Shown in pieces: positions 3,040-19,302 of a stretch of 27,854 nucleotides of DNA (within the stretch, counting starts at the first letter, position 1; every line of letters begins with the position of its first letter). Below the pieces are notes generated by a model. It saw nothing but the letters and a program-made list of their open reading frames with translations. It did no database searches and was not told the DNA's origin. Position numbers and translations under genes: made by a program. Origin of the DNA: a virus; IMG/VR virus record IMGVR_UViG_3300032241_002426, positions 1 to 27,854 of that record; one strand, written 5' to 3'.

Positions 3040-4047
3040 ATGAAAAAATGGATTTTCATCACTGGCGGATGTGGCTACATAGGTAGCCACATTGCTGCTC
3101 AGATTAAAGACACTACTGATTATTCTGTGATGTTGATTGATAAACGAGCTAAAGAACTGTCTCATACAGTAAAATATTGCGACATTTACGCTGATGAAGA
3201 TTTTACCAGTAAAATTACACAAGACGCTATACAACAATATCAACCAGAAACTATTATACATCTAGCAGACACTAATGATTTTAGTTCTAGTATGATCAAT
3301 CCTTTCACTACTTGGGAAAATAATGTTGTTAATGTGCAACGTTTATTGATGTGCTGCGAAAGAAACATGATAAAAAATGTGATATTCGCTAGTTCAGGCT
3401 CTGTTTATGCAGAAAATAACATTGCACTAGATGAAAATAGCAAATTGCTGCCTCATAGCCCGTATGATACAACCAAAATTGTTGGCGAAATGATGTTAAA
3501 AGATTGGTATGGAGCGCACGGTATTCGAAATGTTAGTTTCAGAATTTTTAATGTAGCTGGCGCACATACCAAATATGATTTGGGAGAATTAAATGGTAGC
3601 CCTCGTTTGTTAGCTAAAATAATGGAATCTGCAACAATTGGTAAAGATTTTACAGTATTTGGTAAAGATTGGAATACGCCTGATAACACCGCTATACAAG
3701 ATTACATCCATGTTATGGATGTAGCCGAAGCAATTGTTAAATCTATATCTTGGTTGCCAGATAATCCAGGGTCGCATGTTGTAAATCTAGGTAGCGGTCA
3801 AGGGTACAGTGTTCAAACTATCATTGATACAACTGAAATGCTACTAAGCAAAGAGTTGCCGTACCGTTACGGAGATCGCAGAGACGGTGATGTTGGTATA
3901 AGAATTTCAAACAATAAATCGTTGCGTGATTTTTTCAATTGGGAACCTAAGCGCACACTTAATGATATGATCTTAGACGGATACAAATGGTATAACAGCG
4001 AATTGTACAAAATATTAACACAAGTTGGTATACATTACAAATCATAA
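3040..4047 (+). CDS. NAD-dependent UDP-sugar epimerase (GalE/extended SDR family)
   Basis: This is an extended short-chain dehydrogenase. The Rossmann NAD-binding glycines are in GGCGYIGSH (residues 9-17), the catalytic Ser region is SSGSVY (118-123) and the catalytic Tyr/Lys pair is in YDTTK (Tyr142, Lys146). The C-terminal sugar-binding part keeps RIFNVAG, DYIHVMDVAEA and NLGSGQGYSV, all typical of UDP-glucose 4-epimerase (GalE). Length (335 aa) is normal for the family. It could supply a sugar nucleotide for the phage, perhaps for the glycosyltransferase at 11648, but that link is inference. The start lies 6 bases after the dsbA stop; no strong ribosome site is seen, suggesting coupled translation. 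The exact sugar substrate cannot be read from the sequence. Confidence 0.85.
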   Translation: MKKWIFITGGCGYIGSHIAAQIKDTTDYSVMLIDKRAKELSHTVKYCDIYADEDFTSKITQDAIQQYQPETIIHLADTNDFSSSMINPFTTWENNVVNVQRLLMCCERNMIKNVIFASSGSVYAENNIALDENSKLLPHSPYDTTKIVGEMMLKDWYGAHGIRNVSFRIFNVAGAHTKYDLGELNGSPRLLAKIMESATIGKDFTVFGKDWNTPDNTAIQDYIHVMDVAEAIVKSISWLPDNPGSHVVNLGSGQGYSVQTIIDTTEMLLSKELPYRYGDRRDGDVGIRISNNKSLRDFFNWEPKRTLNDMILDGYKWYNSELYKILTQVGIHYKS

Positions 4048-4049
4048 TC

Positions 4050-4068
4050 GTATTGTGTTCAACAATAC
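4050..4068 (+). promoter_or_regulatory. Hairpin in the leader of polymerase gene 43A
   Basis: GTATTGT (4050-4056) and ACAATAC (4062-4068) form a perfect 7-bp stem with a 5-nt loop. It lies 16 bases upstream of the AAAGGAG ribosome site (4085-4091). T4 and RB69 gp43 repress their own translation through an operator hairpin next to the ribosome site, so this could be an analogous operator. The spacing differs and no loop match can be claimed. A weak terminator after the epimerase gene is the alternative. Confidence 0.3.
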
Positions 4069-4100
4069 AACATTGCATAATTATAAAGGAGTTTAAGTGT

Positions 4101-5789
4101 ATGTCATATGTAGATGCGTTTCATGAGAGAGATAAAAATCAAATACTCGTTGTAGAACGCAATAAAGCAGGCAAACGAGTTTATAACGAGTATAACACAA
4201 AATATTGTGCGTATTGGTCTAGTTCTCGCGGAAAGATACCTAACATTTATGGACAGATGTGTGAGAAATTTCAAACCAGCAGATTAAAAGAGTTTACACG
4301 AGAAGTAAGTACCTTACCAAAAAATAGCATACACGAAACTGATATCAATCCAATATTTCGTTGTTTTTATGATAATTACAAAGGTGCAGCAAGTCCCGAT
4401 TTGCACATTGCATTTTTTGACATTGAAACCGATTTTGACCCTTTACGAGGATTTTCTAGTACCGACGATGCGTTTTCTCCAATAACAGCTATTTCGGTTT
4501 ATTTAAATTGGTTAGAAAGAAATTTCACAATGGTTCTTAAACCAAAAGGTATGAAAAATGAAATTGCAGAAGAGATAGTTGAAAAATTTGACGATACTAT
4601 ATTATGCAAAGATGAAAAAGAATTATTAGAGATATTTCTCAGTCTTATTGATGACGTTGATATACTAAGTGGATGGAATTCAGAAGGTTATGATATACCA
4701 TATATCCACAACAGAATCGTCCAAATCCTTGGAAAAGAAGAAACACGCAGATTGTGTTTATGGGGTAAGTTTCCAAAACGTAGAGAATATGAAGCTTTTG
4801 GAAAAACAACAATAACGTATGATCTTATTGGTAGAATACATTTGGATTATCTACAATTATATCGTAAGAATACTTATCACGAAATGCACAGTTATCGTTT
4901 AGATTTTGTAGGCGAATACGAAGTAGGTGATAAAAAGATACATTACGAAGGTAGTTTAGACAGTCTATACAATAACGATTTTGAAAAATTTATTGAATAT
5001 AACCGTCAAGACGTAATGCTGCTTGTTAAGATCGATGCAAAAAATAAGTTTATCGAATTGAGTAATAATTTAGCACATGAAAATTGTGTATTATTACAAA
5101 CCACTATGGGTGCAGTTGGGTTAATTGACCAAGCAATTGTTAACGAATCTTGGGATCTGGGATTTGTTGTGCCTAATCGCAAACACGACAGTCATAGAAA
5201 TGACAGCAGTGTTAACAACGATGATGACTACGATGATGCAAATATCTCAGGTGTTGTTGGTGCATATGTTGCTGATCCAAAGGAAGGTATGCATGATTGG
5301 ATCGGCGGCGTAGATATCAATAGTCTGTATCCAAGTGCAATTCGAGCACTGAATATGAGCCCAGAAACTATTGTAGGACATATTAGACCAGAAGCAACTG
5401 AAAAATTAATTTACAAACGTATAAAAGAAGAAAAGAAAACTTTTGCTGATGCATGGAATGGTATGTTTGGAACCCTTGAATATAATTGGGTTATGGACCA
5501 ACATTTAACACCTATTACAGTAGATTTTGAGGATGGTTCAATTAGTACCATATCTGCAAGTGAACTTTACGATTTTGTGTTCAACAGCGGTAAGAAATTA
5601 ATTTTGTCAGCTAATGGTACTATTTTTAGCAATGAAAAAAAAGGTATTATTCCGGGATTACTTGCACGATGGTATTCTGAACGTAAACAATTACAAGCTA
5701 AAGCCAAAACTGTTAATAATTTCATAGATGGTATAGAAATTCCTCCAGAATTATTAGACAAGGTTCAACAATTATTGAACACAGACTAA
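4101..5789 (+). CDS. 43A: DNA polymerase family B, N-terminal fragment (gp43A): exonuclease and motif A
   Basis: This is the first fragment of a T4 gp43-type replicative polymerase. The 3'-5' exonuclease motifs are present: Exo I in FFDIETDFD, Exo II in DILSGWNSEGYDIPYI and Exo III in YNRQDVMLLVKID. Polymerase motif A is GVDINSLYPSAI, with the metal-binding Asp. The frame stops at 5789 after a segment equivalent to the fingers approach (LLARWYSERKQLQAKAK), before motif B. Motifs B and C are supplied by two later genes. The ATG at 4101 is preferred because AAAGGAG (4085-4091) is correctly spaced; an in-frame ATG at 4053 has no ribosome site. At 562 aa it should fold and associate with gp43B and gp43C. 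Splits of gene 43 with a homing endonuclease between the parts are known in some T4-related Aeromonas phages. Confidence 0.93.
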   Translation: MSYVDAFHERDKNQILVVERNKAGKRVYNEYNTKYCAYWSSSRGKIPNIYGQMCEKFQTSRLKEFTREVSTLPKNSIHETDINPIFRCFYDNYKGAASPDLHIAFFDIETDFDPLRGFSSTDDAFSPITAISVYLNWLERNFTMVLKPKGMKNEIAEEIVEKFDDTILCKDEKELLEIFLSLIDDVDILSGWNSEGYDIPYIHNRIVQILGKEETRRLCLWGKFPKRREYEAFGKTTITYDLIGRIHLDYLQLYRKNTYHEMHSYRLDFVGEYEVGDKKIHYEGSLDSLYNNDFEKFIEYNRQDVMLLVKIDAKNKFIELSNNLAHENCVLLQTTMGAVGLIDQAIVNESWDLGFVVPNRKHDSHRNDSSVNNDDDYDDANISGVVGAYVADPKEGMHDWIGGVDINSLYPSAIRALNMSPETIVGHIRPEATEKLIYKRIKEEKKTFADAWNGMFGTLEYNWVMDQHLTPITVDFEDGSISTISASELYDFVFNSGKKLILSANGTIFSNEKKGIIPGLLARWYSERKQLQAKAKTVNNFIDGIEIPPELLDKVQQLLNTD

Positions 5790-5811
5790 ATACTCTCTAT
5801 ACGGAGGTATT
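5789..5811 (+). promoter_or_regulatory. Hairpin hiding the ribosome site of the HNH endonuclease gene
   Basis: AATAC (5789-5793) plus TC (5794-5795) pair with GA (5804-5805) and GTATT (5807-5811), leaving one bulged G (5806) and an 8-nt loop. The strong GGAGG ribosome site (5803-5807) falls in the loop edge and right arm and would be blocked. The left arm contains TAAATA (5787-5792), resembling the core of a T4 late promoter. A transcript starting a few bases downstream would lack the left arm and be translatable. Confidence 0.45.
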
Positions 5812-5815
5812 GACA

Positions 5816-7018
5816 ATGAATATGAATGAAATAGAATTGATATTCTATAGCAGCAAAAATACACGGTCACAACTACATTTACATAGATATCTTAAATTAA
5901 TGAAATACTATCAAAATAATGCTTGTATAAAAGTAAAAGGGTTAAATGGTGCATATGAGAGACATCATATTTTACCAAGGAAATTATACCCTGAATATAA
6001 AAATTCCAAATGGAATATAATAGTGTTACCGACAAAAGCACATTATTTGGCTCATTATTTTTTATATAAGGCGTTAAGTGACAAATCTTGTGTATATGCT
6101 TTTAATCAAATGCGTAGAATATCCAAAAAGAATGGTAAAACTTTTTGCAGATTGTATGAATCTGTTAGAAAAGAGTTTGCAAAACTAATTAGTGAAAATA
6201 ATACAGGCAAAGAAGTAAGTGAATCGGCAAGGCTCGCATTGAGTAACCATCATAAAAATACAAACATTTATAGAAATAAAAAAACCGGCGAATTAAACAG
6301 GATTACAGTAGGACAGCAGCCAGATGGATGGGAACCTTTTCAAACGGGTAGAATACGAACTGCAGATTCGAAGAATAAAATTCGTGAAGCAATGTCAAGT
6401 AGAATGTGGCAATTCAATGCAGAAACAAAAGAAGTAAAAATGGAAAAAGAGCTATTACCGGGTTTTACTTTGGGATATCCAGACTGGTATGATAATGGCC
6501 GTGGGTTAATAAAAGGATATGTTTGGATACACAATCCAGAAACAAAGGTTCATTATAGAATACCAAAACATGACCAGATACCAGATGGGTTTGTGACAGG
6601 AAGAATTTACAACAATGTAGGATTTGCTAAAATTAATCAGCCAAACTTGCTGCGATTGATTGATTTATCGACAAAATGTTTTGTTATAATTGATAAAAAA
6701 GACTTTGACCCAAAATTACATCTGAAAACAGGACAAAGTTTGGAGAAAACATTTGTGTATGAGTATAAAAATACTGTATATTTATCGTACTTGGACTTAA
6801 TAAACGCTTGTCCTGAAATTCCGGAGTTTGGAAAACGTGACGACAGTTTGAATCACCTAACAGTTCCAAAACCACATTACAATATGAAAGATGCACGAAA
6901 AGAATTTTGCGCAATACATGCAGGAAAAACTATGAACCAAATTGGACTAAAAGTTATAAAAATAGCAGACTATGCATATGATAGGAGGATAATTTATGTT
7001 AGATGCAACAGTGATTAA
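5816..7018 (+). CDS. HNH homing endonuclease, free-standing, between polymerase fragments
   Basis: This 400-aa protein has an N-terminal HNH nuclease motif: ERHHILPRKL (His50, His51), an Asn around residue 67, then KAHYLAHYFLYKAL (His76, His80). The middle and C-terminal parts carry repeats of a DNA-binding module seen in phage homing endonucleases, read as YRNKKTGELNRI...PDGWEPFQTGR and VWIHNPETKVHYRI...IPDGFVTGR. It interrupts the polymerase between motif A and motif B and presumably cuts an uninterrupted gene 43 at that site to spread. The ATG at 5816 is chosen because GGAGG (5803-5807) is 8 bases away; the in-frame TTG at 5810 is too close. Its last 23 bases overlap the start of the next polymerase fragment, whose ribosome site lies inside this gene. 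Confidence 0.85.
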   Translation: MNMNEIELIFYSSKNTRSQLHLHRYLKLMKYYQNNACIKVKGLNGAYERHHILPRKLYPEYKNSKWNIIVLPTKAHYLAHYFLYKALSDKSCVYAFNQMRRISKKNGKTFCRLYESVRKEFAKLISENNTGKEVSESARLALSNHHKNTNIYRNKKTGELNRITVGQQPDGWEPFQTGRIRTADSKNKIREAMSSRMWQFNAETKEVKMEKELLPGFTLGYPDWYDNGRGLIKGYVWIHNPETKVHYRIPKHDQIPDGFVTGRIYNNVGFAKINQPNLLRLIDLSTKCFVIIDKKDFDPKLHLKTGQSLEKTFVYEYKNTVYLSYLDLINACPEIPEFGKRDDSLNHLTVPKPHYNMKDARKEFCAIHAGKTMNQIGLKVIKIADYAYDRRIIYVRCNSD

Positions 7019-7953
7019 TCAGGCTATACAATCTGGTGATGCTGAAACACTTGCTACACTGATTAAGGAACAAAATTTAGAAATAAAAGATGGCAAAGTT
7101 GTCGCCGACCCTGAGATGGTAAAAAAATCTTTTGATTTTTGGGATCAACGCCAATTGATTAAGAAAATTCTACTAAATTCGTAAATATTGCGACGTAAAC
7201 AGGTAACTGTTTGATGAAAACCGCTCTAATTGCTGGAAACTCCTTGTTAAGGACAATCAGCAGCCAAGCATCGAAAGATGAAGGTTCAACGACTAGGTTG
7301 AAAGACCGTAGATCCAAGTGGATCGAAACGGGCGGCATCCAATTTATTTGGATGGTGATATAGTCTCCTCTGCATGGTAACATGCAGCAGCACGTAACGG
7401 TGCGGGATATGGCCTAACGAGCTTATTTGAAGATTTGGTATATGGAGCAGTTGGTAATCCCGGAAGTAGGTGGTATGATCCTCGTGTTGCACAAAGTACC
7501 ACATTAAGCGGGCGTTGTATCGTAAAGCACATGCAAAGCAAAATTAATGAAATTATTGCAGGAGATTACAACCATCTTGGCATTAGCTGTATATATGGTG
7601 ACAGTGTTACTGGAGATACATTAATCAAGACAGACTCCGGAGAAATAACTATTGAGCAACTTTACAACGAATGTTTTGAACACTGTATCTCTAACGGTAA
7701 AGAATATGGATTATGGTCGCAAGCAAAGGTGGTTGGATTTAATTCGTATGAAATGGTACCGTTAGTTAATCCAATCGAGTACGTAATGAGACACAAGACT
7801 AAAAAGAAATTATATCGTATTACTACTGAAAACGGCAAACAGGTAACAGTGACCGAAGATCACAGTCTTATGGTTGATAGGGATGGATATCTTGTTGAAG
7901 TTAAACCAACTGAAATATTAGAAGGCGACAACATCATTACATTTGTAGTATAA
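6996..7953 (+). CDS. 43B: DNA polymerase middle fragment with intein N-half (gp43B), interrupted by a group I intron
   Basis: The mature coding sequence is best read as 6996-7182 joined to 7439-7953 (233 aa). Exon 1 ends in QLIKKILLNS and then meets a stop formed by the intron start. Joining T7182 to T7439 gives a Leu codon and restores motif B as NSLYGAVGNPGSRW, as in T4-type polymerases. Exon 2 continues through STTLSGRCIVKHM to motif C, ISCIYGD. There the intein N-half begins at Ser (7603): SVTGDTLIKT is block A and GKQVTVTEDHSL is block B with the T-x-x-H motif. The N-half is 116 aa and ends at the stop at 7953. The ATG has an excellent AGGAGG (6983-6988) inside the HNH gene. Unspliced RNA would give only a 62-aa fragment. 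Confidence 0.88.
7183..7438 (+). ncRNA. Group I intron (td-like, IA2 type), no internal ORF
   Basis: The 256-nt intron lies within the motif B codons of the polymerase. Landmarks are: P1, UCGU (7179-7182) with GCGA (7190-7193), including the U-G pair at the splice site; P2, AAACAG/CTGTTT (7197-7202/7207-7212) with a GTAA loop; a P5-like TCCTT/AAGGA; and the R element GTTCAACGACTA. P7 is GACTA (7291-7295) with TAGTC (7361-7365). P9 is CTGCATG/CATGCAG (7370-7376/7381-7387), nearly the same as in the T4 td intron. A likely P10 pairs 7185-7188 with 7440-7443. The intron ends in G7438, the usual terminal G. It lacks a homing endonuclease, so it is either immobile or depends on a neighbour in trans. 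Confidence 0.93.
7603..7950 (+). other. Split intein, N-terminal half (IntN), within gp43B
   Basis: The 116-aa half-intein is inserted after YGD of polymerase motif C. The first residue is Ser rather than the commoner Cys, so splicing would begin with an N-to-O acyl shift. Block A reads SVTGDTLIKTDSGE and block B reads QVTVTEDHSLMV, with Thr and His in T-x-x-H. The last readable strand, EILEGDNIITFVV, ends at a stop, as expected for a naturally split intein. Confidence 0.88.
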
Positions 7954-7955
7954 TA

Positions 7956-7963
7956 GATAAATA
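7956..7963 (+). promoter_or_regulatory. Possible late promoter for the Vsr-like endonuclease gene
   Basis: GATAAATA matches the T4 late box TATAAATA at seven of eight positions. It ends directly before the left arm of the hairpin at 7964-7995. Transcription from such a box would begin a few bases later, inside the left arm, leaving the start codon unpaired. Confidence 0.4.
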
Positions 7964-7995
7964 GGCATATGGGGACAGGAGTATCAGCATATGCC
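7964..7995 (+). promoter_or_regulatory. Hairpin enclosing the RBS and start codon of the Vsr-like endonuclease
   Basis: GGCATATG (7964-7971) is perfectly complementary to CATATGCC (7988-7995), giving an 8-bp stem and a 16-nt loop. The AGGAG ribosome site (7977-7981) sits in the loop and the start codon (7991-7993) is in the right arm, so translation from read-through RNA should be weak. The T4 intron endonucleases I-TevI and I-TevII are controlled by the same logic, with a late promoter producing RNA without the left arm. Confidence 0.6.
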
Positions 7996-8932
7996 AAAAT
8001 GTCTTGAATGCGGATTTGAATCATCTAGACTACAATGGACTCATTTTAAGTATAACTGTACAGGAAGATTTAAAAACGGTAAAGAATACATGAATGCATA
8101 TCCATTTGCTAAAGTGGTTGATGACGAACTAGCCAAACGTACGGCGGTAACATTAGTTACATTGATTAACAAATACGGCGAGAAAGACGGAAGAATTAAG
8201 TGGGAAGCATATAGACAGAAACAAGCAAAATCTAACACCTTTGAATATAAACAAGAAAAGTATGGATGGACTGCTGATGAATTTGATCAGTATAATGTGT
8301 CGAGAGCAATTACTGTAGAAAACATGGTAAAAAAGCATGGGGTTGAAGATGGATTACGTAAATGGGAAGAATATTGCGACCGTCAAAAATTTACAAAAAG
8401 CAAAGAATATATTGTTAACACATATGGATTACAATATTGGAATGATCTGTGTCAAAAAAAGAGTGCACCACACAAAGCGGAATTAGTAGCAATTAAGTAT
8501 GACATCACTATTGATGAGGCAGTCGCTAAAATCGCTGCTAGATACCGATCATCATATTCAAGTACTCTAGAATTAGAATTTGTAAAAGAATTAGAGAAAA
8601 CTTTAGGTAAACTTGATAACACAAACCTGACGTCACCTTTTGGTAAATGGAATCATATAAAAAATTCGTATGTAGTATATGATATAAAACACAATGATTG
8701 TATAATAGAATTTAATGGAGATTATTGGCATGCAAATCCAAAAATTTACAGCGCCACTGACCAAATCAGAGGCACGGTTGCTAGCGACATTTGGGAAAAA
8801 GATAGAATTAAGCTTGATATAGCGCATGCCGCAGGATTTAGAACATTTGTGGTATGGGAATCAGATTATCTAACAAATAAAGAAATGATTATTAAGGAAA
8901 TAGTAGAATGGATGCAGACTACACCAAAGTAA
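7991..8932 (+). CDS. Vsr-like (PD-(D/E)XK) homing endonuclease within the split intein
   Basis: A 313-aa homing endonuclease lies between the two intein halves. The N-terminus is a small zinc-finger-like knot, C4-x2-C7-x10-H18-x4-C23. It is followed by two similar repeats, KYGEKDGRIKWEAYRQKQ and KHGVEDGLRKWEEYCDRQ, each leading to a YG element and likely DNA-binding. The C-terminal domain has YDIKHNDCIIEFNGDYWHAN and a downstream D-I-W-E-K-D-R-I-K segment ending AGFRTFVVWESDY. This is the Vsr/EDxHD-type nuclease core known from fractured phage genes with split inteins in ocean metagenomes and from the phage enzyme I-Bth0305I. The AGGAG site (7977-7981) and ATG lie in a hairpin. The 3' end overlaps the next polymerase fragment by 25 bases. 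Confidence 0.85.
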   Translation: MPKCLECGFESSRLQWTHFKYNCTGRFKNGKEYMNAYPFAKVVDDELAKRTAVTLVTLINKYGEKDGRIKWEAYRQKQAKSNTFEYKQEKYGWTADEFDQYNVSRAITVENMVKKHGVEDGLRKWEEYCDRQKFTKSKEYIVNTYGLQYWNDLCQKKSAPHKAELVAIKYDITIDEAVAKIAARYRSSYSSTLELEFVKELEKTLGKLDNTNLTSPFGKWNHIKNSYVVYDIKHNDCIIEFNGDYWHANPKIYSATDQIRGTVASDIWEKDRIKLDIAHAAGFRTFVVWESDYLTNKEMIIKEIVEWMQTTPK

Positions 8933-9033
8933 AATCAATTGAATGTCTCGGAGAGATAGATGAATATGTTTACGATATTTCTATAAAGAATGGTGATCCT
9001 TTCTTTTTTGGTAATGATATACTTTTACATAAC
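8908..9033 (+). other. Split intein, C-terminal half (IntC), within gp43C
   Basis: The 42-aa half-intein has block F in EYVYDISIKNGDPFFFGN and block G in DILLHN, followed by Thr at extein position +1. The penultimate His and terminal Asn needed for Asn cyclisation are present. The site (YGD/TDS) matches the known pol-c insertion point of archaeal family B polymerase inteins. Confidence 0.9.
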
Positions 9034-9891
9034 ACCGATTCCGCCTACTTTTCAGCCTACCCAGTAATGAAGGATTTACTAGAATTTAAAGATTTTGAAT
9101 GGACAAAAGAAAATGTAACTGACCTTTATGATAAAATTGGTGATATAACCAACACTAGTTTTCCAGAATTCATGCGTAAATCATTTAATTGTCCAGAAGA
9201 AAATGGCGAGATTATTCGTGCTGCTCGAGAACTTTGTGCTATTAAAGGTTTGTTTATTACCAAAAAACGTTATGCTGTCCTAATTTACGATAAAGAAGGT
9301 AAACGTAAAGACGTCAACGGCAAGAAAGGTGAGATTAAAGCTATGGGGTTAGATCTCAAACGAGCCGATACTCCAAAAATTGTGCAAGATTTTCTTAGTG
9401 ATATATTGGTAGATGTATTAACAGGCGGCACAGAAACAGACATACAAACTAAAGTGTTAGAATTTCGTAAAGAATTTCGATCTTGGCCAAGTTGGCTAAA
9501 AGGCACACCAAAACGTGCTAACAATATCACTTATTATCAAAATATAATGGAAACACAGAGTAAAAAAGCTACAATACCCGGGCATGTATTAGCTAGTATC
9601 AATTGGAATCGTTTAAAAAAGATTTATAATGATAATTATAGTGCAACTATACAAGACGGATTTAAGGTAGTTGTTTGTAAATTACGTCCAAATCCTAGTG
9701 GTTTAACATCGATTGCATATCCGGTAGATGAATTAACATTACCTCGATGGTTCAAAGAATTGCCGTTTGATGACGATGCAATGGAAACTGCGCTTATAGA
9801 TAAAAAATGTCAAAATTTATTATCGGTGTTAAAGTGGGATTTAGACAGCAACAAAGAAAATAACAGTTTTAACGATTTATTCAGTTTTTAA
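8908..9891 (+). CDS. 43C: Intein C-half plus DNA polymerase C-terminal fragment (gp43C)
   Basis: Residues 1-42 are the C-terminal half of the split intein; residue 43 onward is polymerase. The extein starts TDSAYFSAY, the second half of motif C (YGD joined to TDS), which supplies the second catalytic Asp. It then has KKRYAVLIYDKEG (the conserved KKRY motif) and GLDLKRADTPKIVQ of the palm-thumb region. It ends in FNDLFSF, resembling the T4 gp43 C-terminal peptide that binds the gp45 clamp. The extein is 285 aa; with gp43A (562) and the gp43B extein (117) the enzyme would be about 964 aa, somewhat longer than T4 gp43 (898). The start codon uses AAGGA (8894-8898) inside the endonuclease gene. 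Without protein trans-splicing motif C would stay divided and the enzyme inactive. Confidence 0.92.
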   Translation: MDADYTKVKSIECLGEIDEYVYDISIKNGDPFFFGNDILLHNTDSAYFSAYPVMKDLLEFKDFEWTKENVTDLYDKIGDITNTSFPEFMRKSFNCPEENGEIIRAARELCAIKGLFITKKRYAVLIYDKEGKRKDVNGKKGEIKAMGLDLKRADTPKIVQDFLSDILVDVLTGGTETDIQTKVLEFRKEFRSWPSWLKGTPKRANNITYYQNIMETQSKKATIPGHVLASINWNRLKKIYNDNYSATIQDGFKVVVCKLRPNPSGLTSIAYPVDELTLPRWFKELPFDDDAMETALIDKKCQNLLSVLKWDLDSNKENNSFNDLFSF

Positions 9892-11016: not shown

Positions 11017-11394
11017 ATGACAAAGAAAACATTTGTGTATACCACTTTTCAAAAAGAAGGATATCATTATTTTCCTGGCGCAGGTGCTAACCCATTATAT
11101 GCAACTGGCGATGAATATGATGTATCTCACCTTAGTACACGACACATGCATTACTTTAATTTTAAGGTTTGGGTAGAAGTAACACATGCAAATCGACAAA
11201 TCGAATTTATTCAGATGCGTCGTTGGATAGAAAATTTATATAAAACTGGCACATTAGAATGTGATCATCAAAGTTGCGAAATGTTAAGCGATGCTCTTTA
11301 TGAGAAGTTGTCTGAAAAATATCCCGGCATGGAAATCAGAATAGATATTAGTGAAGAAGGTATCAACGGTTCTTATACTGAATACAAACCTTGA
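11017..11394 (+). CDS. QueD/PTPS-like T-fold protein
   Basis: The 125-aa protein contains FQKEGYHYFPGAG, STRHMHYFNFKVWVEVTH and IEFIQMRRWIENLY. This order of a His/Glu-containing first strand, an H-x-H-containing strand and a Glu-Phe strand recalls 6-pyruvoyltetrahydropterin synthase and QueD folds. A later C-E segment (DHQSCEMLSDALYEKL) follows. It is probably a structural relative found in phages rather than a standard QueD; a better QueD candidate lies at 16854. It opens the modification cassette, so a pterin or deazaguanine role is reasonable inference. A GGTGA-type ribosome site precedes the ATG. Confidence 0.55.
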   Translation: MTKKTFVYTTFQKEGYHYFPGAGANPLYATGDEYDVSHLSTRHMHYFNFKVWVEVTHANRQIEFIQMRRWIENLYKTGTLECDHQSCEMLSDALYEKLSEKYPGMEIRIDISEEGINGSYTEYKP

Positions 11395-11411
11395 TATTGG
11401 AAAATCATATT

Positions 11412-11648
11412 ATGATAAGACATATACGAGAATTAGCCAATCAAGCCGGGTTTGATGCTTCTTCAAACTTTATTATACCTAAACATTCTGGCCATATATC
11501 AGATGAATTGTTAAAATTTGCAGAATTAATCGTCAACGAATGTATTGATATAGTGATAAGAAGCGATCAGTCGACTAAGATGGTGTTGCACGAGCCGTTT
11601 AGAACAATAGCTGACAATATACAAAATCATTTTTACGGAGAAGAATAG
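11412..11648 (+). CDS. Small conserved-type phage protein of unknown function
   Basis: The protein (78 aa from this ATG) reads MIRHIRELANQAGFDA, then KFAELIVNECIDIVIRS. This pattern, a short N-terminal helix followed by F-A-E-L-I-x-x-E-C, is common in small hypothetical phage proteins; no function is known to me. A TTG at 11391 overlapping the preceding stop is an alternative start, but the ATG at 11412 has GGA (11399-11401) at 10 bases. The stop overlaps the GTG start of the glycosyltransferase by one base, indicating coupling. Confidence 0.65.
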   Translation: MIRHIRELANQAGFDASSNFIIPKHSGHISDELLKFAELIVNECIDIVIRSDQSTKMVLHEPFRTIADNIQNHFYGEE

Positions 11649-12784
11649 TGCAAGACATTTATATAGTGCCACTTGAAAAATTAGAAACTCGGTACACAAC
11701 AGGATGGTATTACCACATACCTAAAATGATCGAAAAGGTTGCAGCAGATCGCAATATAGATATTAATATCGTTATTTTAGACGGTGATGATGTACCGCCT
11801 ACCCCGACACCAGGAGCTTTTTTAGATTTTGGCGCAACGAATATTTTTAAAAGTAGTCAATTGATGATTATTGCAGAATTATTCAGACAAGGTAAGATAA
11901 AAGCAGGAAGCAAATTTCTCTATACTGATGCATGGAATCCAACTGTAATACAACTAAAGTATATGAGCGAATTGTTGAATATTCCAGTTGAGATACATGG
12001 TATGTGGCATGCTGGTAGCTGGGATTCTCAAGATTTCCTTGGTAGATTAATCGGAAATAAGCCATGGGTCCGACACTCTGAATTGGCTATGTTAGACTCT
12101 TATGACACCAATTGGTTTGCTACAGAATTTCATATAGATATGTTTATTAGAGAGATGTTTTCTCCATTCTATGAGGACTCATTAGAATATTATAATCCAA
12201 AATTTCAACAAGTTAAAGATCAATTGTTAGAAAGCAAAAAAATTGCTAAAACAGGTTGGCCTATGGATTATTTGTTGGATGTATTGAAACCTTATCAAAA
12301 GTTAATCAAAAAACAGCAGATTTGTTTCCCACACAGACTTGCTCCAGAAAAACAATTAGAGATTTTTAAGGATTTAGCAGCTAGCATGCCTGAATATGAA
12401 TGGGTTGTATGCCAAGAGCGTGAGCTTACCAAACATGAATATCATACTATACTTGGCGAAAGTCAAATTGTATTTTCTGCTAATCTACAAGAAACATTTG
12501 GTATTTCTTGCATTGAGGGACTTATTTGTGGTGCATGGCCAATGGTTCCGGGAAGGCTTAGCTATCAAGAAATGTATGATTCTATTTTCAGATATCCAAA
12601 TGAATGGACTAAAAATTGGCAATCATATCAAAAGAACAAGTCAAAGATGATTGATTTAATCAGAAATACTATGGATAAATTTGAGTTAAACAGTAAATCG
12701 GTAGATGAAGCACTAAGTCGACAGTTTTCTGCTATGGATAATTTTATTAAAGCAACACCATTAATTGACCGTTTAGTAGGTTGA
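11648..12784 (+). CDS. GT-B glycosyltransferase (GT4-like), possible base-modification glycosyltransferase
   Basis: This is a 378-aa retaining-type GT-B candidate. The C-terminal donor-binding half has FPHRLAPEKQLEIF, then VFSANLQETFGISCIEGLIC followed by GAWPMVPGRLSYQEM; this includes the E-x7-E motif and the P-(G/L)-x-Y-x-E segment. By eye this half resembles the queuosine-tRNA mannosyltransferase QTMAN/GTDC1 (PHR near a Lys, then EFFG, LEAVYCGCYPL, and Y-P-E). The N-terminal acceptor half (GMWHAGSWDSQDFLGR, DTNWFATEF) is less familiar. It sits directly before dpdA in the 7-deazaguanine cassette, so glycosylation of a modified base in DNA is a reasonable hypothesis; glycan or protein modification is the alternative. 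The start is GTG at 11648 with GGAG (11637-11640) 7 bases upstream, overlapping the preceding stop. Confidence 0.8.
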   Translation: MQDIYIVPLEKLETRYTTGWYYHIPKMIEKVAADRNIDINIVILDGDDVPPTPTPGAFLDFGATNIFKSSQLMIIAELFRQGKIKAGSKFLYTDAWNPTVIQLKYMSELLNIPVEIHGMWHAGSWDSQDFLGRLIGNKPWVRHSELAMLDSYDTNWFATEFHIDMFIREMFSPFYEDSLEYYNPKFQQVKDQLLESKKIAKTGWPMDYLLDVLKPYQKLIKKQQICFPHRLAPEKQLEIFKDLAASMPEYEWVVCQERELTKHEYHTILGESQIVFSANLQETFGISCIEGLICGAWPMVPGRLSYQEMYDSIFRYPNEWTKNWQSYQKNKSKMIDLIRNTMDKFELNSKSVDEALSRQFSAMDNFIKATPLIDRLVG

Positions 12785-12830
12785 TTATTCGCTAGCAAGT
12801 TAATCATAATGTAATAGAAAGAAGCATACA

Positions 12831-14465
12831 ATGAATCCATTTGAAAATCAGCAAGATTTACATAAACGCGCACTTAATCTAGCAAAGACACAACAAGACT
12901 ATGCAATTTTTTTGCCAAGTATAAGTGCAATCTACGCTAAAATTGTCAGTATGCCCAAATATAAAGTACGAGATCGTTTACCAGACGGGCTTAATAATGA
13001 TAGATTAGACTTAGATTTTCTCAATAAAAACAATAGTTTATTTTATTATCCTGCTGCACTCTATAGTGCGGGTCATGCTTATTTAGATCCTAAAGAAAGT
13101 GATATATACGAGGGTATGGTGCAAAAGAGGGATCGCAGTAGAACTGTAATTCTAGGTGACAGCGGCGGATTCCAAATAGCTACCGGTGTATTGAAATGGC
13201 CGTGGACAGCAAAAAAAGGTCAAGACAATGCAGAATGGGCCCAAGACAAAGACAAGATGCGTATGCAATTGTTAAGATGGCTAGAACACACAGCAGATTA
13301 TTCAATGTCACTGGACGTGCCTACCTATGGTCTAGTAAAGTTTGGGTTTGATCCCGTAACAGGTCAAAGCATGCATCCTGGGATGAAAACCTTTGGTGAC
13401 TGTTTGCGAGAAAGTCTCGAAAATCATAACTTTTTTATAAAGCATCGTGTAGAAGGTGCTACGAAATTCTTGAATGTTTTGCAAGGTCGTAACGAGGCTG
13501 AAGGTGATATATGGTGGGATGCTGTTAAAGATCTACCGTTTGAGACTTGGGCGTTTTCAAACGTTCAAGCATCAAATTTTGCAATCAATCTACGTCGATT
13601 AATTATCATGCGAGATGGCAAATATCTTGACGGTAGAGATTGGCTGCATTATTTAGGTAATGGTAAAATAAAAGCGGGATGTGCATTAACTACACTGCAA
13701 CGCGCCATTAGAAAATATATTAATCCTGATATTACCATTAGTTTTGATGCTGCATCACCTTTTGTAATGACTGCCAAAGGTCAAATGTATCATGGCTATG
13801 AGCTCAGACATAATAGTATGCGATTTAAAGGTGGTTCGATTGTCGACGATAAATCATTAAAAAATAGTACAACATTGTTGAATGACTGGATAGCAGGTAA
13901 TGATCATAAAGGTTTTGTTATACCAACGCAAATAGGTTCAAGATGCACAGTCGGTGATATATGTGTTAGAGGATATGAAGATCTTGATTATAAAAAAGTA
14001 GCGTGGACTAAAAAAGAATTAGAAACAGATTTGTATCTTAATAGTCCTGAAGGTCGCGTGGGAGATAAATTTAAATGGAGTTCTGACTATAAAGATTATC
14101 TAGCGCATAGTAAAGACAACGGCGGATTATTTGATTTTGGTAGCAGTAAATTTGAAAAAGAATATGAAAAATATCAAGTTAAATGGCCCAGCAGTATGGA
14201 TGGATTTTCATATCTTATCGCAATGAATCATAATGTCGAATTGCACATTAGAGCCATACAAGAAGCGTGCATGTGGCAAGATCGTGATTTAGCCGAAGCT
14301 ACATCACATATAACACCAGATTTGCTAGAATTTAAAGATCTTTGTAGCGAAATATTGACCAGCCAAACTCCGATGGATATTATCAATAAACACGAAAAGC
14401 TTTTGCGTAATATCACTGGTATGGACGCTGATAATGCAGTTCCGATAGATTTTGGAGATATATGA
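12831..14465 (+). CDS. dpdA: DpdA-family 7-deazaguanine DNA transglycosylase
   Basis: DpdA relatives of tRNA-guanine transglycosylase exchange guanine in DNA for a 7-deazaguanine. Here the substrate-binding motif is GDSGGFQ (Asp110-Gln115), followed by SLDVPTYG (Asp162), NVLQGR (Gln218, Gly219) and the likely nucleophile region FDAASPF (Asp306). The length (544 aa) is much longer than Tgt, as in phage DpdA proteins, with a C-terminal extension. The position among folE, queD and queE supports a role in modifying phage DNA, probably for protection from host restriction. The ATG follows a GAAAGAAG leader with no strong ribosome site. The stop overlaps the next start (ATGA). Confidence 0.9.
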   Translation: MNPFENQQDLHKRALNLAKTQQDYAIFLPSISAIYAKIVSMPKYKVRDRLPDGLNNDRLDLDFLNKNNSLFYYPAALYSAGHAYLDPKESDIYEGMVQKRDRSRTVILGDSGGFQIATGVLKWPWTAKKGQDNAEWAQDKDKMRMQLLRWLEHTADYSMSLDVPTYGLVKFGFDPVTGQSMHPGMKTFGDCLRESLENHNFFIKHRVEGATKFLNVLQGRNEAEGDIWWDAVKDLPFETWAFSNVQASNFAINLRRLIIMRDGKYLDGRDWLHYLGNGKIKAGCALTTLQRAIRKYINPDITISFDAASPFVMTAKGQMYHGYELRHNSMRFKGGSIVDDKSLKNSTTLLNDWIAGNDHKGFVIPTQIGSRCTVGDICVRGYEDLDYKKVAWTKKELETDLYLNSPEGRVGDKFKWSSDYKDYLAHSKDNGGLFDFGSSKFEKEYEKYQVKWPSSMDGFSYLIAMNHNVELHIRAIQEACMWQDRDLAEATSHITPDLLEFKDLCSEILTSQTPMDIINKHEKLLRNITGMDADNAVPIDFGDI

Positions 14466-14692
14466 TGACAGATTACGATTTAACAATACATCAGAATCCA
14501 AGCGCAGAAGTTTGGACTAATTTTTTCATTGAAACAACTAATAACATGCCAAAAGAAGTTTTTTCTGATTTCGGTTATATGATAGGTTGGTTTTCGAATG
14601 CTATGATGGCTATGCATGATCATCTAATGTTAAACGGTCAGCCGATTAACGGTGATCATGCACAGTATCTGTTAGATAACGGAGATTTTTGA
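14462..14692 (+). CDS. Small protein of unknown function downstream of dpdA
   Basis: The 76-aa acidic protein contains a probable amphipathic helix (SDFGYMIGWFSNAMMAMHDH) and ends in an acidic NGDF. No family is recognised. GGAG at 14452-14455 lies before two possible ATGs (14462 and 14465). The gene overlaps dpdA at its start and the following gene at its end, so it belongs to the same operon and is probably translated by coupling. Confidence 0.65.
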   Translation: MMTDYDLTIHQNPSAEVWTNFFIETTNNMPKEVFSDFGYMIGWFSNAMMAMHDHLMLNGQPINGDHAQYLLDNGDF

Positions 14693-15228
14693 TGAAACGT
14701 GAATACGCAGTTGGTACCAAAGAAAACATTGATTTCTTTTGGGGGACTGAGGTTGAGAATACCCCTGCTACTGGACTTACAACATTATTTGTTGTTGGAG
14801 TACATGATATTGATGAGGTTGTTAAGCAACGAGATAAGACGAAAACACCTTGTCAGCACATTTATTTGGGAGCAAATCAAAGTTTTGACCCAGGTGATTG
14901 GCAACGTGGCGACTTAACAGCAAGCGATTCTTGGGATAGATTTATCAAACAAGTATTAAATTTAGGAGTTCTGACTACACTTGATTTCGATGTTAAACAC
15001 GTCGAATGGGTATTAGAAGGGTGTTATGCAGAAAATAATAATTTTATACCACAAATATCTGTTAAGATACCATATATTGAACAATTGCGATACAACGCAA
15101 CTGTAAAAATCGACGACATAGGTTTTAAGGTTAGTAATCCAGGTGTTTGGTGTCATAGCTTACACGATTTAATGGATAGAAAGACATTTACTGCATGGAA
15201 CGAATACACAAAGGATCTACCATTATGA
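14692..15228 (+). CDS. Conserved-type protein of unknown function in the modification cassette
   Basis: The 178-aa protein has strongly patterned segments: GTKENIDFFWGTEVENTPA, LFVVGVHDIDEVV, HIYLGANQSFDPGDW, TLDFDVKHVEWVLEGC, ISVKIPYIEQLRYNATVKID and NPGVWCHSLHDLMDR. The alternation of hydrophobic strands with conserved Asp, His and Glu suggests an enzyme-like alpha/beta fold, perhaps barrel-like with the acids at strand ends. I do not recognise a named function. It lies between dpdA and folE, so a step or accessory role in 7-deazaguanine metabolism is plausible. The ATG at 14692 (GGAGAT at 14681-14686) is preferred over the TTG at 14689. Start and stop both overlap the neighbours. Confidence 0.75.
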   Translation: MKREYAVGTKENIDFFWGTEVENTPATGLTTLFVVGVHDIDEVVKQRDKTKTPCQHIYLGANQSFDPGDWQRGDLTASDSWDRFIKQVLNLGVLTTLDFDVKHVEWVLEGCYAENNNFIPQISVKIPYIEQLRYNATVKIDDIGFKVSNPGVWCHSLHDLMDRKTFTAWNEYTKDLPL

Positions 15229-15725: not shown

Positions 15726-16397
15726 ATGACATCAGTTAGTAACAAAATACGAGATCGCATTAAAGCTAACGGTGGAAAATTTTTCTGCAATGACAACATT
15801 TCGGAATACTTAGAGCCTGGTGATTTTGAATCGCTAATAACAGAAGTATCGAGTAAGATGCAAAGTGTATTAGATAGTTTGATAATTGATACAGAAAACG
15901 ATCATAATACAAGAGAAACTGCGCACCGAGTTGCAAAAATGTTTTGTACAGAAGTGTTTTCAGGGAGATATTTACCTCCGCCTAAAATTACTACTTTTCC
16001 AAATGTAACTGAATATGATCAGGTATATGTAACAGGGCCTATTTCAGTACGTAGTACCTGTGCACATCATCTTCAATCAATAAAAGGCAAGGCTTATGTT
16101 GGAGTTTTTCCGGGCAAAAATGTTATAGGACTTAGTAAATTTAATCGAATGGTAGATTGGCTAGCTAGTCGTCCTCAAATTCAAGAAGAAATGACAATAC
16201 AAATTGCAGATCTTATTGAGCAAGAAACACAAGCTGACGGTGTGGCAGTGATCGTCCAAGCAGAACACGGGTGTATGACAATGAGAGGTGTTCGCGAACA
16301 TGAAAGTGATATGACTACAAGTGTTATGCGCGGTGTATTTAGAGCACATCCACATATTAAGCAGGAGTTCTTTGACATTGTAGCAAGGATGAAGTAA
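15726..16397 (+). CDS. folE: GTP cyclohydrolase I
   Basis: The enzyme converts GTP to 7,8-dihydroneopterin triphosphate, the first step to both folate and 7-deazaguanines. Zinc ligands are in STCAHH (Cys112, His115) and EHGCMTMRGV (Cys183), as in bacterial FolE (Cys110, His113, Cys181 in E. coli). Substrate-binding segments VGVFPGKNVIGLSKFNR and the helical N-terminus (RETAHRVAKMF) are present. At 223 aa it is full length. In a phage with dpdA and queE, its job is probably to feed 7-deazaguanine synthesis. AAAGGAT precedes the ATG. Confidence 0.95.
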   Translation: MTSVSNKIRDRIKANGGKFFCNDNISEYLEPGDFESLITEVSSKMQSVLDSLIIDTENDHNTRETAHRVAKMFCTEVFSGRYLPPPKITTFPNVTEYDQVYVTGPISVRSTCAHHLQSIKGKAYVGVFPGKNVIGLSKFNRMVDWLASRPQIQEEMTIQIADLIEQETQADGVAVIVQAEHGCMTMRGVREHESDMTTSVMRGVFRAHPHIKQEFFDIVARMK

Positions 16398-16683: not shown

Positions 16684-16857
16684 ATGGAGATAACAGGGTT
16701 AACATATAGCCAAAAATATAAAAAAGATCAAGCAAAACTAAAAACGGCTAGCGATCAAAGATTTAAGGTTTTTGTGGTAAGATCCAACTTTACAGATGAA
16801 CAGAAAACAAATATAATAACCGAATTTATCAAATATACAAAGGAACAACTGAAATGA
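16684..16857 (+). CDS. Very short gene (57 aa), unknown function
   Basis: An ATG at 16684 opens a 57-residue frame (MEITGLTYSQKYKKDQAKLK, then RFKVFVVRSNFTDEQKTNII, ending TKEQLK) with helical, lysine-rich composition. Its stop overlaps the start of queD in the ATGA pattern used elsewhere in this operon. The frame fills an otherwise empty 212-base gap. The ribosome site is weak (GAGGGG at 16664-16669, 14 bases away), so confidence is moderate. Confidence 0.5.
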   Translation: MEITGLTYSQKYKKDQAKLKTASDQRFKVFVVRSNFTDEQKTNIITEFIKYTKEQLK

Positions 16858-17369
16858 CAACATATCAACCAATAGCGTATAAATTTACATCAACAAAGGA
16901 GTATGTACAAGAATTCCCTTGTGCTTACAAACAATGGAAAGCTGACACCTGGTGTAATCTTAACCATGGTTATTCATTCTCTATTAAATTTTATTTTGGT
17001 GCAAATGAATTAGATAAAAGAGGCTGGGTTTGTGATTACGGAGGACTTAAGGAATTAAAACAAATTCTTAAAGATCAGTTTGATCACCGAACATTGATTG
17101 CCCAAGATGATCCAGATTTGGAAAAATATAAACAACTTGAAAAAGATGGTGTTCTTAAACTTACAATTTTACCAGGCATGGGCTGCGAAATGATTGCTGA
17201 TATGCTCTATAAGTATGTTAACAGTGTTTACATTCCCAATTACTTAGGAAAGGGAGAATCCAAAAGGATTTGGTGCTATCGTGTAGAAGTTCGTGAGACT
17301 GTATCAAACATGGCTTATAGAGAAGGTCATAGAGAATGGAATGAGGACCTTTTTGAAGGTCTAGAATAG
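16854..17369 (+). CDS. queD: QueD-family 6-carboxytetrahydropterin synthase
   Basis: The 171-aa protein has the PTPS/QueD layout: CNLNHGYSFSIKFYFGA (catalytic-type Cys34, His38), WVCDYGGLKELKQIL (the usual M-D-F-x-D-L-K segment), FDHRTL (Asp77, His78) and a C-terminal VEVRET glutamate. It would turn dihydroneopterin triphosphate into 6-carboxytetrahydropterin, between FolE and QueE. Two of the three usual zinc histidines appear changed: HGH is HGY here, and the first His position reads Tyr in FPCAYKQW. I associate this HGY form with phages. The start overlaps the 57-aa gene, and a terminator follows the stop. Confidence 0.82.
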   Translation: MTTYQPIAYKFTSTKEYVQEFPCAYKQWKADTWCNLNHGYSFSIKFYFGANELDKRGWVCDYGGLKELKQILKDQFDHRTLIAQDDPDLEKYKQLEKDGVLKLTILPGMGCEMIADMLYKYVNSVYIPNYLGKGESKRIWCYRVEVRETVSNMAYREGHREWNEDLFEGLE

Positions 17370-18134: not shown

Positions 18135-18374
18135 ATGACAACTGACATTGATCAGCCATTTTTGTTAATGTGGGATCTTCTTGATTTAGATGAAATGCAA
18201 TCTCGTATAGATTGGTTACGAGAAAATCTGACAGCTGGCGACGATTGGGGTTTTTGTCGAGAACAAAAGATTTGTGTACTGAAAAATAGATCAGCAACGG
18301 TCCTGTATCGCCTGAGATGGGTTGAGCCTGGTAAGCAGGTAGATGTAAGTGAAAAGTCTTTTTCGCTTGATTGA
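18135..18374 (+). CDS. Small protein of unknown function upstream of queE
   Basis: The 79-aa acidic protein (MWDLLDLDEMQSRIDWLREN, then WGFCREQKICVLKNRSATVL) has one helix followed by a probable beta pair. No family recognised. It follows the previous stop by 17 bases. Its stop is 49 bases before the queE start, and a short perfect palindrome (TATCTTTTAAAGATA, 18376-18390) lies between them. Confidence 0.6.
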   Translation: MTTDIDQPFLLMWDLLDLDEMQSRIDWLRENLTAGDDWGFCREQKICVLKNRSATVLYRLRWVEPGKQVDVSEKSFSLD

Positions 18375-18423
18375 CTATCTTTTAAAGATACAACACAATT
18401 TAAAAATAATTAGGATATTTTTT

Positions 18424-19302
18424 ATGTTTGGACATAATTCTATAGTTGGGCAATCTTATTTCAAAGATGCTGAAGATAAATTGATGGTAACCTCGATTTT
18501 TTATACCTTACAAGGCGAAGGTCCTTATCGTGGCGAGCCAGCGATATTCGTGAGATTTGCCAAGTGTCAGTTGTCGTGTTCATTTTGTGACACTTTTTTT
18601 GATGATGGTGATTGGTTGACTACACCGCAGATTAATCAACAAATACACACAATAATCGATCAACATTTTGATAGTAACATACCTCTATGGGCAAATGAAT
18701 TATGGGGTATGGAGGAATATCCTCTTAAAAAGAGAAATATGGTTTTAGTAGTAACAGGCGGTGAGCCGATGTTACAAAAAAATATTGGACCGTTTTTAGA
18801 ATATATGAGCAAACGTTTTGACAAGACACAGATAGAAAGCAACGGGCTCTTGGTTCAAGATATACCGTCATCTACTACATTAGTTGTAAGTCCAAAATGT
18901 AGCGAGAAAAATGGTCAACCAACACAATATTTAGCACCTAATCCAAAGATGTTATCTCGCGCAGATTGTTTGAAATTTGTAATGTGCGCTGATCTTAATT
19001 CTCCATATAGTTCTGTACCAGATTGGGCGCATGAATGGCGAGCTAAAACTGGCAAACCAATATTTGTAAGTCCAATGAATATATACAATGAAGAACCACA
19101 AAAGAGCAAACAACTACGAGCAGAAAAGAATCAAATAACCATTGAAGAACGCAGTACCGTAGATGAGGTAATTTCTTGGTGGACTCCTGGGTTGTTGAAT
19201 ATGTCAGAAAATCAAAAAAATCATGAATATGTAGCTCGTTATTGTATTGATCATGGTTTTATTTTCAATATGCAACTACACTTGTTTTCATCGATGGCTT
19301 AA
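18424..19302 (+). CDS. queE: 7-carboxy-7-deazaguanine synthase QueE (radical SAM)
   Basis: QueE contracts 6-carboxytetrahydropterin to 7-carboxy-7-deazaguanine. The radical-SAM cluster motif is in AKCQLSCSFCDT (Cys48, Cys52, Cys55, a C-x3-C-x2-C), with the preceding QGEGPYRGEPAIFVRF typical of QueE and the SAM-binding TGGEPMLQ downstream. The enzyme keeps IESNGLL and SPKCSEKNG, and ends in MQLHLFSSM, as QueE proteins often do. At 292 aa it is somewhat longer than E. coli QueE. The ATG at 18424 has AGGA 8 bases upstream; a frame extending upstream to 18349 overlaps the previous gene without a ribosome site. It completes the chain FolE-QueD-QueE. Confidence 0.94.
   Translation: MFGHNSIVGQSYFKDAEDKLMVTSIFYTLQGEGPYRGEPAIFVRFAKCQLSCSFCDTFFDDGDWLTTPQINQQIHTIIDQHFDSNIPLWANELWGMEEYPLKKRNMVLVVTGGEPMLQKNIGPFLEYMSKRFDKTQIESNGLLVQDIPSSTTLVVSPKCSEKNGQPTQYLAPNPKMLSRADCLKFVMCADLNSPYSSVPDWAHEWRAKTGKPIFVSPMNIYNEEPQKSKQLRAEKNQITIEERSTVDEVISWWTPGLLNMSENQKNHEYVARYCIDHGFIFNMQLHLFSSMA

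Follow-up and report, generated by a model that had tools for sequence, protein, structure and literature searches.

Gene content of the window

The window, the whole 27,854-nucleotide stretch of viral DNA that was analysed (IMG/VR record IMGVR_UViG_3300032241_002426), carries a predicted glycosyltransferase (GT) gene among genes assigned to 7-deazaguanine synthesis and base exchange. The features considered here are the following:

3040..4047, plus strand, GalE-like nucleotide-sugar epimerase
11017..11394, plus strand, QueD/PTPS-like protein of 125 aa (phrog_17812; hhalign to QueD with a probability of 89, E = 2.4e-6)
11391..11648, plus strand, 85-aa open reading frame flanked by the QueD-like and GT genes, seen only in the window
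11648..12784, plus strand, QTMAN-related GT-B glycosyltransferase of 378 aa, GTG start (assigned from motifs, profiles, tree and AlphaFold)
12831..14465, plus strand, TGT/DpdA-superfamily transglycosylase (type I) of 544 aa, putative DNA base exchanger (DSGGFQ, FDAASP and profile matches)
14692..15228, plus strand, core cassette protein of 178 aa with no assigned function (AF2 pLDDT of 91.7; weak QueE resemblance)
15726..16397, plus strand, FolE, GTP cyclohydrolase I (Pfam, E = 7.7e-50)
16854..17369, plus strand, QueD, 6-carboxytetrahydropterin synthase (Pfam PTPS, 8e-17; phrog_2389, 8e-34)
18349..19302, plus strand, QueE, 7-carboxy-7-deazaguanine synthase, radical SAM motif CxxxCxxC (phrog_2076, 1.8e-48)

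As judged by family assignment, FolE, QueD and QueE, the 7-deazaguanine synthesis set, are encoded together in the window and its relatives. The 178-aa protein has its best fold match to a STAS domain (Z-score of 7.3 over 91 residues), with QueE at a Z-score of 5.8 over 131 residues, and no Foldseek match below E = 0.17. The gene of the 125-aa QueD-like protein lies near the GT gene in nearly all loci; the protein was rejected as a GT-specific partner because it also occurs beside FolE in phages without the GT. The epimerase had been proposed, in an earlier reading made from the sequence only, to supply the sugar donor. This role was dropped, as the epimerase lies near the GT gene in 3 of 37 fully flanked loci and is not a specific partner. 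A PIG-L deacetylase, carried only by PhiXhv, was likewise rejected as a general part of the cassette.

The transglycosylase gene begins 46 bp downstream of the GT gene. Its product contains the motifs DSGGFQ and FDAASP, and has no direct sequence match in Pfam or the PDB. The type I family matches a second phage transglycosylase family (type II; probability of 93.8, E = 1.8e-7), which in turn matches bacterial TGT (probability of 94.5, E = 8e-8), and the transglycosylase of ACP17 matches TIGR00449 at 4.6e-7. Compared directly, type I and TGT match weakly (E = 8e-4). Single-sequence hhalign of type I with CAjan DpdA gives E = 0.12–0.15, a comparison in which the same query likewise reaches only E = 0.1 with TGT. 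On these profile and motif grounds the product belongs to the TGT/DpdA superfamily; in view of the weak match to TGT and of the CAjan comparison, DNA is a putative substrate. Such phage transglycosylases, with PA5oct named among their carriers, have been interpreted as DNA-modifying (Iyer 2021, PMC7824862).

The glycosyltransferase and its kinship to QTMAN

The AlphaFold model of the GT (pLDDT of 80.7) has a predicted GT-B fold, with Z-scores of 20–23 to retaining GT4 enzymes in the PDB; these fold neighbours are diverse, and the absence of QTMAN among the PDB fold matches listed excludes nothing. Sequence and model together indicate a retaining, GT4-like GT-B enzyme, with the fold, the active-site histidine, the Arg/Lys pair and the E-x7-E motif all present. 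The three motifs named in the sequence-only reading were all located: PHR at residues 228–230, E-x7-E at E282/E290 and CG-x-x-P at C294–P298. Residues H121, R230, K235 and E282 are invariant in alignment A6, and E290 is conserved in at least 90%; in the GTs of loci L023–L025 and of BUCT-ZZ01 the first glutamate of E-x7-E is replaced by aspartate. The E-x7-E motif is a general GT4 hallmark, found in 23 of 26 GT4 controls. Two other motifs discriminate: HR..[DE]K occurs in 82/88 phage GTs, 17/21 QTMANs and 0/26 GT4 controls, and P.R[L].[YF].E in 82/88, 18/21 and 0–1/26, respectively.

Used alone as a query, the GT has no significant match in Pfam, PHROG, NCBIfam or the PDB sequences, and the kinship to QTMAN, the tRNA-queuosine alpha-mannosyltransferase that transfers mannose from GDP-Man to queuosine in tRNA-Asp, emerged only from the family profile. 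The QTMAN_N domain (PF12038) had no match in 14 control genomes, and QTMAN-bearing genomes were therefore sought in a phylum sample. The phage-GT profile was run against six-frame translations of 34 bacterial genomes, with no prior selection of proteins. In each of the 21 genomes that bear QTMAN it identified the QTMAN gene (E = 1e-7 to 1e-14); the next matches elsewhere had E of at least 0.1, apart from the GT itself, which lies on contigs of four assemblies. QTMANs score 34–58 bits against this profile and control GT4 enzymes at most 11.7; with the reciprocal QTMAN profile, phage GTs have a median of 37.8 and controls at most 17.3. In the tree, phage GTs and QTMAN are split from 24 GT4 controls at 100/98. 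Among everything tested, the nearest cellular relative of the GT is QTMAN, as judged by sequence.

The claimed likeness to QTMAN/GTDC1 stands for one half of the protein. The C-terminal, donor half matches QTMAN in hhalign (E = 8e-15), and the N-half profile does not (E = 0.46). The QTMAN_N domain was found neither in the GT at E ≤ 10, nor in the window by profile search, nor in the relatives of the GT. The kinship is confined to the donor half, and these two results indicate that the GT is a relative of QTMAN rather than a member of its family. For the N-terminal, acceptor-binding half, relatives were found in phages only, and homology therefore does not indicate the acceptor. The profile comparison proposed earlier matched QTMAN (probability of 98.3, E = 2e-14) and not the DNA glucosyltransferase families: 27 GTs searched against Pfam gave no match to the T4 alpha-GT or beta-GT families, only to generic GT4 models, besides isolated matches attributed to chance. 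Matches were not confined to lipopolysaccharide or teichoic-acid transferases.

Linkage to 7-deazaguanine genes in related phages

Deazaguanine genes lie near the GT gene in 80/80 viral contigs picked by the GT alone. Of 50,697 phage records, 392 have FolE and 248 have QueE, and against this background the pairing is far above chance. In the 37 fully flanked loci, DpdA is present in 35, FolE in 32, QueE in 34, the QueD-like protein in 37 and the 178-aa protein in 35, and all 335 of 335 cassette genes are co-oriented. The placement of the GT immediately before dpdA, noticed in the window alone, recurs in 22/22 type I loci with enough upstream sequence. In PA5oct, the GT is EST35_0317 and the transglycosylase EST35_0316. 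The GT gene also adjoins the very different type II transglycosylase in ACP17, X1, BUCT-ZZ01 and L003. The collection scans used the core GT alignment, the broader one being too diverse, and the GTs of X1 and PhiXhv as queries found no relatives among viral_contigs.

Among the complete relatives PA5oct, Phosso, ACP17 and X1, no QueC was found above the cut-off of a search that matched 12/14 controls, and QueF was found neither in these phages nor in BUCT-ZZ01; the window itself is a fragment. The lack of both enzymes suggests that the phage itself makes only 7-carboxy-7-deazaguanine (CDG). A host QueC could substitute for the absent phage enzyme. The scanned stretches of PA5oct yielded no FolE. 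Vibrio phage 2.275.O has DpdA with QueC and QueF, and no GT in the 25 kb examined; in CAjan, whose modification is known, no GT was found. In PhiXhv-12, the GT gene lies beside gat-QueC, with no DpdA or FolE recognised there.

A putative glycosylated 7-deazaguanine and its comparison with known systems

We consider it likely that the window carries a 7-deazaguanine DNA-modification cassette that includes a glycosylation step by a retaining GT; the sugar, the linkage, the timing and the DNA target of that step are what we infer. By family, FolE, QueD and QueE would convert GTP to CDG, and the TGT/DpdA-like enzyme would replace guanine in phage DNA with CDG or a derivative of it. The GT4-type GT would then move a sugar from a host nucleotide-sugar to the 7-substituent, with GDP-mannose as the first candidate donor because of the kinship to QTMAN. 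More speculatively, the lack of QueC and QueF in complete relatives points to a likely handle in the 7-carboxyl, or in a product that the QueD-like 125-aa protein and the 178-aa protein would derive from it. As CDG has no hydroxyl, an unusual glycosyl ester or a further intermediate step would be needed. Like known 7-deazaguanines and glucosyl-hydroxymethylcytosine, the sugar would protect phage DNA against restriction enzymes.

The constant presence of FolE and a QueD/PTPS-like protein beside the GT, and a weak PDB profile match (E = 0.21) to the tetrahydrobiopterin glucosyltransferase 9v0l, would fit an enzyme whose acceptor is a pterin or a free precursor of deazaguanine rather than DNA, like the cyanobacterial pteridine glycosyltransferases. 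We regard this as improbable: QTMANs score 34–58 bits against 13.7 bits for 9v0l, QueE and the transglycosylase are equally constant neighbours, and some phages have FolE and the QueD-like protein yet no GT. Distinctly improbable is a viral queuosine-tRNA glycosyltransferase with a tRNA-acting transglycosylase beside it. The kinship to QTMAN and the membership of both transglycosylase types in the TGT superfamily favour it, but QTMAN_N is absent, QueC and QueF are missing from the complete relatives, which would make no queuosine themselves, and such phage transglycosylases have been interpreted as acting on DNA.

A different base could be the acceptor, such as a hydroxylated pyrimidine occurring alongside 7-deazaguanine in these phages, since the known phage DNA glycosyltransferases act on pyrimidines. 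This is very unlikely given that the window has no recognised pyrimidine hydroxymethylase, that the GT is linked to 7-deazaguanine genes and that its kin modifies a 7-deazaguanine nucleoside. The least probable reading is that the GT decorates a host surface polysaccharide or a virion protein, and lies in a replication and modification region by coincidence. Many phage GT4 enzymes are so employed, and the GT4 fold neighbours are diverse; against this stand the 80/80 linkage and 335/335 co-orientation across divergent phages, the association with two very different transglycosylase families and a window in which no cluster of glycan genes was seen.

A glycosylated 7-deazaguanine in DNA would join two defence strategies in one base, and would make the correspondence of tRNA queuosine with DNA modification reach as far as the sugar step. 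We tentatively propose, with less confidence than for the cassette itself, that at least 586 viral stretches, some of them from jumbo phages, may share this undescribed hypermodification, in which CDG is built without QueC or QueF and inserted in DNA. A QTMAN-related enzyme would then glycosylate its 7-substituent, and the QueD paralogue and the 178-aa protein would contribute a chemical step that is new. If so, hypothetical genes of jumbo phages would be explained, including those of Paride, killer of dormant Pseudomonas, a means of restriction resistance in such phages would be suggested, and a new enzyme for DNA labelling would be at hand. The prediction is testable on existing phage isolates. 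The known sugars of phage DNA are all on pyrimidines. The phage 7-deazaguanines known so far carry small groups only (Hutinet 2019, PMC6884629; Cui 2023, as cited in PMC12783734). In the part of the journal literature that was searched, no published case of a glycosylated 7-deazaguanine in DNA was found, nor any paper that connects a glycosyltransferase with DpdA, and term searches of the papers on MIJ3 and Paride gave no reference to DNA modification.

With QTMAN/GTDC1, its sister group in the tree, the phage GT shares the C-terminal donor half with both discriminating motifs, and QTMAN modifies a 7-deazaguanine nucleoside within a nucleic acid, as proposed for the GT. The phage enzyme differs in lacking QTMAN_N, in being viral and in its pairing with DpdA-like genes; its acceptor would be DNA, not queuosine. 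BshA, MshA and other GT4 enzymes have in common with it the GT-B fold and the retaining active-site residues (Z-scores of 20–23), but in sequence QTMAN is much closer to it than the GT4 controls are. T4-type hydroxymethylcytosine glucosyltransferases likewise place sugar on a modified phage DNA base, as the GT would, although no sequence-family match links them and the predicted acceptor of the GT is a purine analogue. Phage 7-deazaguanine systems with DpdA, FolE, QueD, QueE and QueC, such as those of 9g and CAjan, have FolE, QueD, QueE and a TGT-superfamily transglycosylase in common with the group of the window. By contrast, QueC is absent from the complete relatives of the window and the GT from CAjan, and the window's group combines divergent transglycosylases with the additional GT, QueD-like and 178-aa proteins.

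Fold and kinship of the glycosyltransferase

The glycosyltransferase (GT) and the reading frame that follows it lie where the sequence-only reading had placed them, within a cassette of deazaguanine genes.

11648–12784: GT, GTG start, 378 aa
12831–14465: TGT/DpdA-like open reading frame directly after the GT, 544 aa
Downstream of both: FolE, QueD and QueE (Pfam and PHROG)

Single-sequence searches with the GT gave no significant match. Its AlphaFold2 model, computed from a 10-sequence alignment of viral relatives (pLDDT 80.7), has a GT-B fold and resembles GT4 enzymes of the retaining type, sucrose-phosphate synthase and BshA among them, over approximately 300 residues (Z 20–23, VIA-align; top rows tied); the nearest predicted viral structure is that of the homologue from Acidovorax phage ACP17. 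The motifs that had been recognized by eye are present, with PHR at residues 228–230, E-x7-E at E282/E290 and CG-x-x-P at 294–298. In a 27-sequence alignment, H121, R230, K235 and E282 are invariant and E290 is conserved in at least 90%. We take these five residues to be catalytic and donor-binding positions, as in GT4 enzymes; their conservation is what a catalytically active retaining enzyme would show, the activity being predicted.

Kinship to QTMAN, the tRNA-queuosine mannosyltransferase, was assessed with the bacterial QTMAN genes (PF12038) of 21 genomes and with 26 GT4 proteins from 4 genomes as controls. The phage-GT profile scored 34–58 bits for 20 of the 21 QTMANs and at most 11.7 bits for all controls, and the QTMAN profile scored a median of 37.8 bits for phage GTs and at most 17.3 bits for controls. 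The proposed comparison of hidden Markov models bore out the relationship (hhalign probability 98.3, E 2e-14). When 34 genomes were searched in six frames, so that proteins were not preselected, the phage-GT profile matched the QTMAN gene in 21/21 QTMAN-bearing genomes (E 1e-7 to 1e-14); the next match had an E of 0.1, setting aside the GT itself on contigs of four assemblies. A maximum-likelihood tree split phage GTs and QTMAN from 24 controls (100/98), each group forming one side of the branch.

This similarity is confined to profile positions ~173–340, which fall in the C-terminal donor half. For the N-terminal half there was no match to QTMAN (E 0.46), and Pfam and profile searches did not find PF12038 in the GT, the window or the GT relatives. 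On these grounds the GT is, as judged from sequence, a relative of QTMAN with a common donor half and a different acceptor half, rather than a QTMAN; the family resemblance first proposed holds for the former half and not for the latter.

Linkage to 7-deazaguanine genes

Linkage between the GT and 7-deazaguanine genes is near-total. At least 586 viral stretches encode GT relatives, compared with 6 among 84,980 genomes of bacteria and archaea, for the most part on MAG contigs. Isolates with the GT are PA5oct-like Pseudomonas phages, Sinorhizobium phage Phosso, Acidovorax phage ACP17, Xanthomonas phage X1, cyanophage BUCT-ZZ01 and PhiXhv-type phages with Ep032. Each of the 80 retrieved loci encodes one or more of DpdA, FolE, QueD and QueE. 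Among the 37 loci flanked on each side by 6 kb or more of sequence, a QueD-like protein is present in 37, a type I transglycosylase in 35, a 178-aa protein in 35, QueE in 34 and FolE in 32; the background in the collection that includes the above isolates is 392/50,697 records for FolE and 248/50,697 for QueE. As near-copies occur among the contigs of these loci, the locus count is not one of independent events. All 335 cassette genes in GT-selected loci share the strand of the GT. The epimerase at 3040, earlier suggested as a source of the sugar donor, occurs in only 3 of the 37 loci and loses its standing as a specific partner.

The GT partners belong to two lineages of the TGT superfamily, which we label type I (window, PA5oct, Phosso) and type II (ACP17, X1, BUCT-ZZ01 and the relative locus L003); the labels are coined here and are not published DpdA subfamilies. 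Type I had no direct match in Pfam or PDB sequence searches. Type II matches bacterial TGT (probability 94.5, E 8e-8), type I matches type II (probability 93.8, E 1.8e-7) and, at E 8e-4, TGT, with alignments spanning the DSGGFQ and FDxxxP region; the ACP17 protein matches NCBIfam tgt_general (4.6e-7). Kinship to the characterized CAjan DpdA was not demonstrated by a single-sequence query, which missed TGT too. Searching from the transglycosylase, a GT of the family described here was directly upstream in 22/22 IMG/VR contigs with enough upstream sequence, three of these GTs being of a divergent subtype; in GT-selected loci the transglycosylase is mostly some kilobases away, and within 300 bp in 7. 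A deazaguanine synthesis and incorporation system was already listed for PA5oct by Iyer et al. 2021 (PMC7824862), whose passages on PA5oct deazaguanine do not tie a GT to it.

The divergent subtype, adjoining a type I transglycosylase, has D for the first E of E-x7-E (relative loci L023:2528–3703, L024:8778–9965 and L025:8151–9326), as does the BUCT-ZZ01 GT. The cassette of this Synechococcus phage (L042:5370–9524) holds two GTs, one of this family and another GT4, and a xanthine-guanine phosphoribosyltransferase.

Elsewhere in the window, a family B DNA polymerase gene is split in pieces (4053–9891). It contains a group I intron match (7173–7387, Rfam E 8.5e-26), preceded by an open reading frame at 5810–7018, and, at the YGD/TDS site, a split intein with halves in 7435–7953 and 8908–9891 (Pfam Intein_splicing); between these lies a free open reading frame (7991–8932) with a Vsr-like 'IEFNGDYWH' motif. 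The arrangement resembles the 'fractured genes' described in the literature.

The predicted base and the proposed sugar step

FolE, QueD and QueE together yield 7-carboxy-7-deazaguanine (CDG; PMC13329287). Because the window covers a 27.9-kb fragment of a virus, a gene missing from it means little, and absences were judged on complete relatives: PA5oct, Phosso, ACP17 and X1 have no QueC above cut-off and no QueF. Vibrio phage 2.275.O (L187) encodes a type I transglycosylase, QueF, FolE, a vitamin-uptake transporter and, annotated as queuosine biosynthesis, a putative QueC by position and size; the 25 kb read contain no GT, QueD-like or 178-aa protein. From these genomes, the GT goes mostly with a route ending at CDG, on which a host QueC could act. 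The Vibrio phage is a naturally occurring counterpart against which the sugar step may be compared.

PhiXhv-12 differs, in that gat-QueC and a PIG-L deacetylase adjoin the GT. This Xanthomonas phage cassette (L037:20040–29997) comprises these two, the QTMAN-related GT, a MocA-type oxidoreductase, a Leu/Phe-tRNA-protein transferase-like protein and GNAT domains, which suggests a base decorated with an amino sugar and an amino acid. A QueF-family protein lies ~16 kb from the cassette on a 519-kb GT-bearing phage contig (G003, IMGVR_UViG_3300017917_001342, 457835–458062).

We infer that the target is DNA, the acceptor CDG-derived and the role protective. The GT would attach a sugar at the 7-substituent once the base has entered DNA or, less probably, earlier. 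As the donor half is the QTMAN-like one, GDP-mannose is a first guess for the donor. Since CDG has no hydroxyl, the product may be a glycosyl ester, or another step may create the acceptor. Candidates for such a step are the 125-aa QueD relative (hhalign probability 89, E 2.4e-6) and the 178-aa protein (14692–15228). The former is not a GT-specific partner, as it adjoins FolE in phages without the GT; the latter is found among isolates in 13 records only, all with the GT. Its confident model has no clear fold match; a weak one to QueE (Z 5.8, 131 residues, among the longest aligned lengths) means that it is perhaps a shrunken QueE relative.

The strongest alternatives to DNA as the target are glycosylation of a pterin or free base and glycosylation of tRNA, the substrate of QTMAN; each is made less likely by the sequence. 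Neither a glycosylated 7-deazaguanine in DNA nor a paper tying a GT to DpdA was found in the published papers searched; either may have been predicted or discovered before. Substitution by 7-deazaguanine and glycosylation of DNA are each known; their combination would be new.
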